Positions 36,032 through 38,220 of a DNA stretch of 50,796 nt are shown in pieces (positions within the stretch are counted from its first letter, which is position 1; every line of letters starts with the position of its first letter). Both the position numbers and the translations under genes were made by a program. Origin of the DNA: a virus; IMG/VR virus record IMGVR_UViG_3300005511_000879, positions 1 through 50,796 of that record; one strand, written 5' to 3'. Below the pieces are notes generated by a model. That model did no database searches and had not been told where the DNA came from. It worked only from the letters and a program-made list of their open reading frames with translations.

Positions 36032-36568
36032 GTGACCAAAAATGCCAGTCCCGCCCTCGATGCTCTCGCCACAAATTTGCAGCGCCTGCTGGATGAGCGG
36101 CCCTCGGTAACGAAAACCGAACTGGGCAAAGCGGCTCGTTGTGACCCGAAGACGATTACGCGGATCCTGGCCAAGACCAACGAGCCTTCGCTCGAAACGG
36201 TGTCCGGCCTCGCGAAGTTCTTTGACCGCCAGCCATGGCAGCTGATTCACCCGGACCTGGACACGTCCCAGGCTGCCCAGCCCACCATCGGTCAAGCCGT
36301 TGATATCTTGGCGCGCGAACTCTCCACGCTCGCCAGCGAACCGCAAAAGTCGGTCGCCGATCTGCTCTATCGACTGGCACTCGCCCCCGACAGCGCGCTC
36401 ACACGAGAAGCCATCAACAAGGCTTTCGATTCCAAAGACGGTGCAGCCGCCAGCCCTCTGGGTGCACCGATCGCCCCAGAAAAAATAGAAGACCTCGAAG
36501 AGCTTTCGAGGCTAGCTGAGGAGAACCATGGCAAGCGGTCCAGGAAACGTCAGGTCAATCAAAAGTAA
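36032..36568 (+). CDS. CI-like phage repressor without peptidase domain
   Basis: 178 residues if started at GTG 36032. The helix-turn-helix (about 24-55, VTKTELGKAARCDPKTITRILAKTNEPSLETVSGLAKFF) is of the XRE type. The C-terminal half is helical and charged, and no LexA/S24 peptidase or Ser-Lys catalytic pattern is present, so RecA-stimulated self-cleavage is not expected. An upstream ATG at 35948 is unlikely because it lies inside the operators and the Cro gene start. No Shine-Dalgarno is evident before the GTG. First gene of the lysogeny operon (repressor, kinase, partner). Confidence 0.75.
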   Translation: MTKNASPALDALATNLQRLLDERPSVTKTELGKAARCDPKTITRILAKTNEPSLETVSGLAKFFDRQPWQLIHPDLDTSQAAQPTIGQAVDILARELSTLASEPQKSVADLLYRLALAPDSALTREAINKAFDSKDGAAASPLGAPIAPEKIEDLEELSRLAEENHGKRSRKRQVNQK

Positions 36569-37364
36569 CGAGCTGCCGATTCTGGGCATCGCGGCTACAG
36601 CTGGCACAGGGAATCGGATTTCGGGATCTCGTAACGAGATCTGGCTCTGCCCCGCCTTCGGGATGTCGCAGGAGCCGCTGATGCTCTACCTGAAGCTCGG
36701 TCTGTCGACCCGCGCGATGATGGTGGAAGTCATCTGCGCCCAGCTCGCGCAGTGCGTCGGACTGGAAAGTCCGAATCCCTATCTCGTGACTGTGAACCCC
36801 AAGCACGTGGGCCGGCCTGGCGGCGCCAAAGTGCTCGTTTTCGGCGCGCTCGACGTGAGCAGCAAGTCGATGGCCCGCCCGATCCGAGCGTTGGACACGC
36901 TGCTGGACATCCTGCGACGGATGAAGGTCGACGATCTGTCTTGTGCCTTCGATGAGTGGATTGGAAACGACGTGAGAAGCCCGTCCGACATCCTTGTGTC
37001 TCCCGAATCAAGGGTCTTTCTCATCGACCACGAGGCGGCTCTCAAAGAAGGGATGGAGGTCGACCAGTCATTGATGAACTGGATCGCCCATCGACTCCTG
37101 GACGGCATGGACGTTGATGAGCGGTTGGCGTTCCTCCGCCGCGTGCGCGGACGCCTCGCGGCGCTGCACCGCGTCTCCCTCGGCCCCGCGCCTTTGGTTA
37201 CGCAATACTCCCAGGACGGCGTCCGCATCTACGAGAGTTTGGTACAGTTTCTGCGAGCCCGACTTCTCCATGTCGACCAACTCATCAGCGAACGCATCGT
37301 GCCCGAGCAGGGCTACCTGAAAGAATCGCCTTCGCAAGCAGTTTCCATCAATGATCCCCGTTGA
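36528..37364 (+). CDS. HipA-like kinase in lysogeny operon
   Basis: 278 residues resembling the HipA_2 group of kinases. The N-terminal part has a nucleotide-lysine candidate Lys56 (LMLYLKLGLS) and the conserved helix VEVICAQLAQCVGLESPNPYLV. The catalytic loop is FDEWIGN (Asp142, Asn147) and the metal-binding aspartate is Asp167 in FLIDHE. GAGGAGA before the ATG is a strong ribosome site inside the 3' end of the repressor gene (overlap 41 bases). HipA relatives phosphorylate proteins such as tRNA synthetases; the target here is unknown. No HipB partner is adjacent except the repressor itself, which has an XRE fold like HipB. Confidence 0.75.
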   Translation: MASGPGNVRSIKSNELPILGIAATAGTGNRISGSRNEIWLCPAFGMSQEPLMLYLKLGLSTRAMMVEVICAQLAQCVGLESPNPYLVTVNPKHVGRPGGAKVLVFGALDVSSKSMARPIRALDTLLDILRRMKVDDLSCAFDEWIGNDVRSPSDILVSPESRVFLIDHEAALKEGMEVDQSLMNWIAHRLLDGMDVDERLAFLRRVRGRLAALHRVSLGPAPLVTQYSQDGVRIYESLVQFLRARLLHVDQLISERIVPEQGYLKESPSQAVSINDPR

Positions 37365-38220
37365 ACTACCCGACTTCGAGGCCGAATGGCGCCCCCTGAG
37401 GATGGAAACCATCCCGGGGAGTGGCGAGGTCATGACCGTCGCAATTTTGGTGCGCGCGGCGAGCGGACAGAGCTCCATCCGGCAATCGGTTCAACCCTCG
37501 GTCTTTGCATCGCTCTTCGGCCCCTCGGCCGGCAAGGGCATCGGGACCATGGTCACGGAGTCTGTGCTGTCCATACAGAGGCAACTGGATGCGGGCACGC
37601 CCACCGAACAATTGGAACCTCCGTTCGGCGGCTTCGACCTGGGTCCGGTGAGAGACTGTGCGGCCCGTGACATCAACGACGTGTTCGACATTGCCATCAG
37701 GCTTTCAAGCGCGTTTGGTCAATCGGCCTTCGGCCAGGCTGCGGAAGCCTCTGATTCAACGAAGCGCGCATTCGACGACTGGGCTGACCGAGTCAAAGTC
37801 GCACTTTTGCGGAAACAGGAAGTGGACCTTGCAACAGACGCCCTTCGCGACTTCAACGTCCGCTTGAAAGTCGGCGGCAAGCAGATGCGTTTCGGCCTGC
37901 TGCGACACACGTACGCGGCCAACTTTGGTGTACTTCGGCCAGGCCACACGAGCGGGGACATCCGCTCCCTCAAGGTCAAGGTCTTCGATCTACAGGGGCT
38001 GCGTCGCGAGCAAGTCTTGCCGATCGATACGGCTGAGATCGTGGTGGGCTGCCCGACAGAAAACATGCTCGAGCCCTTCTCCCGGCGGGAAATCGAAACA
38101 TTCCAAGAGTCCTTGACCTTCATCGATTTGGAGTCAAAGGCGCGCGGCGTTCGCCTCGTCCGCTGCGAGACCGCCGACAAGGCCGCACACCATATTGCAT
38201 CTGCATTGATGGCAGCCTGA
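37351..38220 (+). CDS. unrecognised partner of HipA-like kinase
   Basis: 289 residues, soluble, mixed alpha/beta. The N-terminus reads FEAEWRPLRMETIPGSGEVMTVAILVRA and the C-terminus is helical. I recognise no family, membrane segment or catalytic motif. It overlaps the kinase gene by 14 bases and ends just before a strong terminator, so the three genes form one unit transcribed from the repressor promoter in the lysogen. It may be a cofactor, substrate or antidote of the kinase. Confidence 0.75.
   Translation: MIPVELPDFEAEWRPLRMETIPGSGEVMTVAILVRAASGQSSIRQSVQPSVFASLFGPSAGKGIGTMVTESVLSIQRQLDAGTPTEQLEPPFGGFDLGPVRDCAARDINDVFDIAIRLSSAFGQSAFGQAAEASDSTKRAFDDWADRVKVALLRKQEVDLATDALRDFNVRLKVGGKQMRFGLLRHTYAANFGVLRPGHTSGDIRSLKVKVFDLQGLRREQVLPIDTAEIVVGCPTENMLEPFSRREIETFQESLTFIDLESKARGVRLVRCETADKAAHHIASALMAA

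Follow-up and report, generated by a model that had tools for sequence, protein, structure and literature searches.

A putative cI-rexAB-type lysogeny operon encoding a HipAD-like pair with a non-canonical kinase subunit

HipAD is a recently described system, the known form of which consists of a kinase and a DUF3037[-DUF1829] protein. The combination of a HipA kinase with a DUF3037 protein constitutes the anti-phage system DS-6/HipAD, in which defence was lost when a predicted catalytic residue of the DS-6A kinase was mutated, and for which AlphaFold3 predicted a complex (PMC13092281). In Retron-Sda1, defence required the kinase and was unaffected when the HTH gene was deleted; deletion of the DUF3037 gene proved toxic (PMC12548924).

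Here we describe a three-gene region of a 50,796-base virus record, the whole of which is termed the window. The region is best read from its sequence as a lysogeny operon in which the first gene encodes an immunity repressor. The kinase and partner encoded downstream likely belong with HipAD/DS-6 (PDC-M66), where it is the DUF3037 protein, and not the HTH protein, that neutralises the kinase.

Organization of the putative immunity region

Three rightward, co-directional reading frames were identified at 36032-38220 by ORF calling (Table 1). The first two overlap by 41 nt (36528-36568) and the last two by 14 nt (37351-37364). The three genes are followed by a single terminator, the arms of which form a perfect 10-bp inverted repeat (38239-38248 and 38253-38262) around a TTCG loop ahead of a U-tract, and which is strong as judged by its RNA fold. 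This layout suggests that the repressor, kinase and partner would be made from a shared transcript. The product of gene 1 matched the Pfam family HTH_26 with 22.9 bits (cut-off 22) and HTH_3 with an E-value of 1e-4. The small Cro/YdaS-like gene on the opposite strand heads a leftward operon that continues with primase/helicase genes, and it has counterparts in locus L006 (annotated as YdaS family) and in the prophage L083 (YdaS_toxin, E=7.5e-7). Since a Cro-like gene lies opposite with operators in between, gene 1 probably encodes the immunity repressor.

The putative operators are palindromes close to GACAAATATGTC, with one pair between the divergent genes and a second pair beyond the terminator. 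Allowing at most one mismatch, GACAAATATGTC occurs three times in the full 50,796 bases, all at operator places, compared with 0.03 occurrences expected. We read the region as an immunity region because it has divergent HTH genes and palindrome pairs on both sides of the operon. The case for a temperate lifestyle rests on this immunity region, since an integrase was not found among the proteins scanned. The preliminary description had proposed one lysogeny operon, headed by an XRE-fold repressor and bound together by two overlapping junctions and one terminator, and all of this is borne out by the HTH_26 match above cut-off, the overlaps of 41 and 14 nt, the hairpin at 38239-38262 and the flanking operator pairs.

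Table 1. Positions of the features discussed, given in the window unless another locus is named
Feature	Position	Strand	Remarks
Small Cro/YdaS-like HTH gene	35702..35959	-	phrog_9425 transcriptional repressor, E=4.7e-9
Operator-like palindrome O1, GACAAATATGTC	35972..35983		palindrome match
Operator-like palindrome O2, GACAAATTTGCC	35995..36006		23 nt from O1
Gene 1, XRE/Cro-CI type HTH protein, probable immunity repressor	36032..36568	+	GTG start, 178 aa
Gene 2, HipA_2-fold kinase subunit	36528..37364	+	278 aa, PF20613
Altered catalytic loop N147-D-V149-R-S-P-S-D154-I-L156	36966..36995	+	family form N-x-D-R-x-x-x-N-x-L
Metal-binding Asp D167 of IDH, retained	37026..37028	+	present in 59/59 others and 3/3 clade members
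Gene 3, two-domain DUF3037-like partner	37351..38220	+	289 aa, phrog_21150
Partner motif ETIPGSGEV	37405..37431	+	family form EPxxGSGE[RK]
Intrinsic terminator of the operon	38239..38270	+	inverted repeat, U-tract, RNA fold z -4.0
Operator-like palindrome O3, GACATATTTGTC	38310..38321		palindrome match
Operator-like palindrome O4, GGCATATTTGTC	38332..38343		22 nt from O3, ahead of next rightward operon
Kinase-less short partner-domain proteins	L008, L009 4797-5357; L010 4959-5360; L051, L054

The closest relative, the prophage L083, has the gene order found here (divergent YdaS-like gene, HTH gene, kinase, partner), and its gene overlaps, 41 and 14 nt, equal those of this phage. Its putative operators have the sequence TAGCGTTTYGCTA and are likewise arranged in pairs before and after the operon; eight matches to TAGCGTTTYGCTA were found in L083 versus 2.0 expected, a number reached by none of 200 shuffles. 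Between this phage and L083 the repressors are only 29% identical and the operators differ, whereas identity is about 60% for both members of the kinase-partner pair. Repressor specificity thus changes while the pair stays, which argues against a dedicated antitoxin contact between repressor and kinase.

When phage records were searched with DNA, the operon had no relatives among them. In the right part of the window, similarity to phage records over any length of DNA was confined to a phosphoadenosine phosphosulfate reductase family gene (29820-31070; phrog_12882, E=3e-229), which is 79% identical to Pseudomonas phages. The rightward operon beyond O3 and O4 encodes a dNMP kinase (40273-41052), a ParB-like protein of 725 amino acids (41672-43849) and a DNA methyltransferase (45404-47296).

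The kinase and its altered catalytic loop

The product of gene 2 was assigned to the Pfam family HipA_2 (PF20613) with 31.8 bits (cut-off 27), and PADLOC matched it to PDC-M66A (E=2e-5), as it did 33 of 39 family kinases. A PDB sequence search with the kinase profile gave chance matches only; the fold search succeeded, and the best PDB matches of the kinase model (pLDDT 86) were CtkA and PI3K/PI4K kinases.

The catalytic loop of the family, DRxxxN, reads VRxxxD in this phage (D149V and N154D), and Asp and Asn occupy these positions in 59 of the 59 other kinases in a wide alignment. The remaining invariant kinase positions (K56, E67, D142, N147, R150 and D167) are kept. Judged by these residues, the V/D kinase lacks the catalytic Asp as well as the metal-binding Asn of DRxxxN and would be expected to have lost phosphotransfer. 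Other residues can serve catalysis in unusual kinases. According to the preliminary description, the catalytic Asp/Asn and the metal Asp are both retained in the kinase; the latter is indeed present as D167, and the former are replaced by V149 and D154. The pair intended there was probably D142 and N147 of the conserved FDEWIGN; the true catalytic loop is the DRxxxN that follows.

The same replacements were found in two relatives. In L083, with a kinase 60% identical to that of this phage, the loop is NDVRSPSDIL and identical to the one described here, and in L098, a chromosomal relative with a kinase 37% identical, it is NPVRHTNDIL, again with V and D. In a kinase tree computed without the loop columns, this phage, L083 and L098 form one clade with an SH-aLRT of 100 (3 V/D versus 59 D/N kinases); with no more than these three members in the clade, either replacement represents one event on the tree. 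Comparison of this phage with L083 gave a dN of 0.38 and a dS of 1.75 for the kinase and, for the partner, a dN of 0.36 with saturated dS, while the codons of the kinase loop show synonymous differences only. The loop change is shared with these two relatives (60% and 37% identical) and lies in a gene under purifying selection, which makes decay an improbable explanation. These comparisons indicate that it is old and maintained, with purifying selection acting on both kinase and partner. A frameshift or sequencing error behind the odd loop was considered and rejected, as the frame is open, the loop is identical in the independent prophage L083 and its codons are synonymously changed.

One further record, L004 (IMGVR_UViG_3300025273_000006), is 99.98% identical to this phage over 10.9 kb. 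It differs solely by two one-base indels, separated by about 20 nt, in its partner gene (L004 4960-5130), where they place a stop in codons 9-16. With the partner interrupted in this way, the pair could be dispensable. If the indels are real, the phage may tolerate loss of the partner, fitting a non-toxic kinase; they may also be an assembly error.

The partner protein and the spread of the pair

The product of gene 3 matched phrog_21150 (E=1.7e-27). It had no match in Pfam, direct identification in the PDB was likewise negative, and the Pfam model DUF3037 matched none of 40 members of the partner family. A profile of this family aligned with longer DUF3037 proteins over 238 collinear columns (hhalign E=6e-5, score 41, with a probability of only 64), whereas controls with reversed, unrelated and 20 block-shuffled profiles scored at most 23. 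The ordinary HipA_2 kinases that were collected mostly have a DUF3037 protein encoded directly downstream. We consider the partner likely to be a divergent DUF3037-type protein. Its earlier designation as unrecognised thus holds for Pfam and gives way to the phrog_21150 match and the DUF3037 profile link. Locus L077 (1375-3092) contains an intermediate pair, a HipA_2-like kinase and a 315-residue partner, the latter bridging the phage-type partner family and the DUF3037 proteins (profile E=1e-5). The partner was modelled with a pLDDT of 90, and a search of a viral fold library retrieved a DUF1828-domain protein (E=1e-3) besides phage proteins of no known function. We do not designate the partner a nuclease, as its XPF/nuclease-like fold matches were weak and limited to one domain (TM under 0.5, E about 0.01) and no conserved nuclease motif was seen.

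Conservation in the partner family is highest in EPxxGSGE[RK]. All 60 other partners have Pro at position 20, and all 60 have Arg or Lys at position 27; in all three V/D clade partners, P20 is replaced by Thr or Met and the basic residue at position 27 by Val, Leu or Ala. Invariant residues were hence given up by kinase and partner alike on one and the same branch. This pattern, which represents one event only, suggests that in ordinary pairs the basic residue of the partner contacts the kinase active site. The correlation could also be coincidence on a long branch. The correlated changes name candidate residues on both kinase and partner for the inhibitory contact of HipAD.

The kinase-partner pair is widespread, with about 45 loci in a first screen, a sample shaped by the search patterns in which frequencies are rough. 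It occurs in Alteromonas phage P24, Acinetobacter phage qsb1, a Rahnella plasmid, a Marinobacter plasmid resembling a phage-plasmid, and many prophages and chromosomes. In the first screen the kinase lies directly upstream of every full-length partner except in L053 (4992-5819, Acinetobacter qingfengensis), where no kinase was detected upstream. An HTH gene is situated just ahead of the kinase in 22 loci, about half of the first screen. The upstream repressors are of different kinds, since 18 of the 22 contain HTH_3 and 7 of the 22 an S24 peptidase domain. In about 20 loci no recognised HTH gene was seen within 1.8 kb upstream when ORFs were read by eye. Such loci lie in the late regions of phages, in a Mu-like phage, on plasmids and at chromosomal sites where neighbouring genes are defence-like, as in L039; the L098 pair adjoins a tRNA-Phe gene, with no repressor there. 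The comparison of these loci indicates that the pair is a mobile two-gene unit, often but not always located within a repressor operon. The preliminary description had named a gene order unique to this prophage as a refuting outcome; the search found the order in other loci.

Several neighbourhoods contain additional genes. A reverse transcriptase gene follows the pair in L039 (2797-4518), reminiscent of Retron-Sda1, and in one prophage (L019, 3943-4146) the repressor and kinase genes are separated by a small YidD-like ORF. In L111 a HipA-like kinase gene (8971-9804), HipA_C-looking by eye, is located about 4 kb downstream of the chromosomal V/D pair. Pseudomonas megaplasmids and genomes encode a short protein comprising only the N-terminal partner domain (EPVMGSGER) in kinase-less surroundings (Table 1). 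This protein is a possible free-standing antitoxin or anti-defence protein.

Proposed function and comparison with known systems

We propose that the locus is a lysogeny operon of the cI-rexAB type carrying a HipAD-derived exclusion pair with a conserved, non-canonical and probably non-phosphorylating kinase subunit, a reading that we regard as reasonably probable. Gene 1 would act as the immunity repressor, and the pair, sharing the repressor's transcript, would for that reason be expressed in the lysogen. By analogy with HipAD, kinase and partner would form a complex and act in excluding other phages, so that exclusion by the lysogen is the likely role as judged from the family. The V/D kinase would serve as an ATP-binding, non-phosphorylating scaffold or sensor, or carry out an altered chemistry, and would not be a toxin held by the repressor. 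A more specific proposal, that a conserved branch of HipAD pseudokinases, in which kinase and antitoxin changed together, excludes phages without phosphotransfer, is advanced tentatively, at somewhat short of even confidence. If it is true, the basic residue of an ordinary partner would reach into the kinase active site and block the kinase. An anti-phage kinase family may include a branch that is maintained although its canonical catalytic residues are gone, and one may ask how such a protein serves a prophage.

The preliminary description had favoured a different role, in which the immunity repressor stands in for HipB as the antidote of an active HipA-like toxin, and loss of repression frees a killing kinase. 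The HTH gene directly upstream with its 41-nt overlap, and the 22 loci with such an order, accord with this, but the catalytic Asp and Asn are missing, a recognised HTH gene is absent upstream of about half of the pairs, L098 of the V/D clade among them, and the neighbouring repressors are of unrelated types and, as in L083, diverge (29% identity) while the pair is kept (about 60%). Moreover, in a relative it was deletion of the DUF3037 gene that was toxic, deletion of the HTH gene being harmless to defence (PMC12548924). We regard the repressor-antidote role as highly improbable. The alternative raised in the same description, a defence module carried by the lysogen, has gained from the homology to HipAD/PDC-M66. 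In its canonical form this would be abortive infection by a kinase freed from its partner that phosphorylates a host target through D148 or D154. The retention of K56, E67, D142, N147, R150 and D167 and the HipAD-like gene order and partner are consistent with such activity; however, replacement of Asp by Val at the base position is non-conservative, position 148 is Pro in L098, so that D148 is no shared substitute, and DS-6 ceased to defend once a key catalytic residue of DS-6A had been mutated (PMC13092281). We consider canonical activity unlikely.

A pair with a conserved fold, a dead-looking active site and purifying selection might instead be a decoy, one that no longer attacks but disturbs a HipAD belonging to the host or to rival prophages, perhaps through mixed complexes, and the kinase-less partner-half proteins on Pseudomonas plasmids would be in keeping with this. 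However, a role as phage antagonist accounts less readily for the bare chromosomal pair of L098, and co-occurrence with a host HipAD found no support, which makes a decoy rather improbable. There is only a slim chance that the pair is a decaying remnant, an inactivated and functionless HipAD in the process of being lost. The near-identical L004, with its two indels and stop in partner codons 9-16, is what a remnant might look like, but the altered loop is also present in L083 and L098, dN is well below dS in both genes, the loop codons have changed synonymously relative to L083, and frames and overlaps are preserved.

Compared with described systems, the locus resembles HipBA in that an HTH gene adjoins a HipA-fold kinase. 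Unlike in HipBA, the kinase is of the PF20613 type without HipA_C or Couple_hipA domains, about half of the loci are HTH-less, a further gene is almost always present and active-site residues are lost. HipBST likewise has three genes for an HTH protein, a small HipA-like kinase and a further protein, but the order here is HTH-kinase-partner and the partner resembles DUF3037 rather than the HipA N-terminal (HipS) domain. In HipAD/DS-6/PDC-M66, as here, a HipA_2-type kinase that matches PDC-M66A is directly followed by a two-domain, here probably DUF3037-like, partner, and those systems too are reported on mobile elements and prophages. Unlike in HipAD, the kinase has other residues in place of its catalytic Asp and Asn, the partner is divergent, having no Pfam DUF3037 match and lacking the conserved Pro and Arg/Lys, and the pair sits inside a repressor operon. 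As in lambda cI-rexA-rexB and other exclusion pairs expressed by lysogens, two extra genes directly follow the immunity repressor in one operon, accompanied by operators and a divergent Cro-like gene, as they also are in L083, although the profile hits of genes 2 and 3 include no RexA/RexB family match and gene 2 has a kinase fold instead. Across the wider set of loci, HipAD-like pairs have repeatedly settled in the immunity operons of temperate phages, in the place of lambda rexAB and beside many different repressors.
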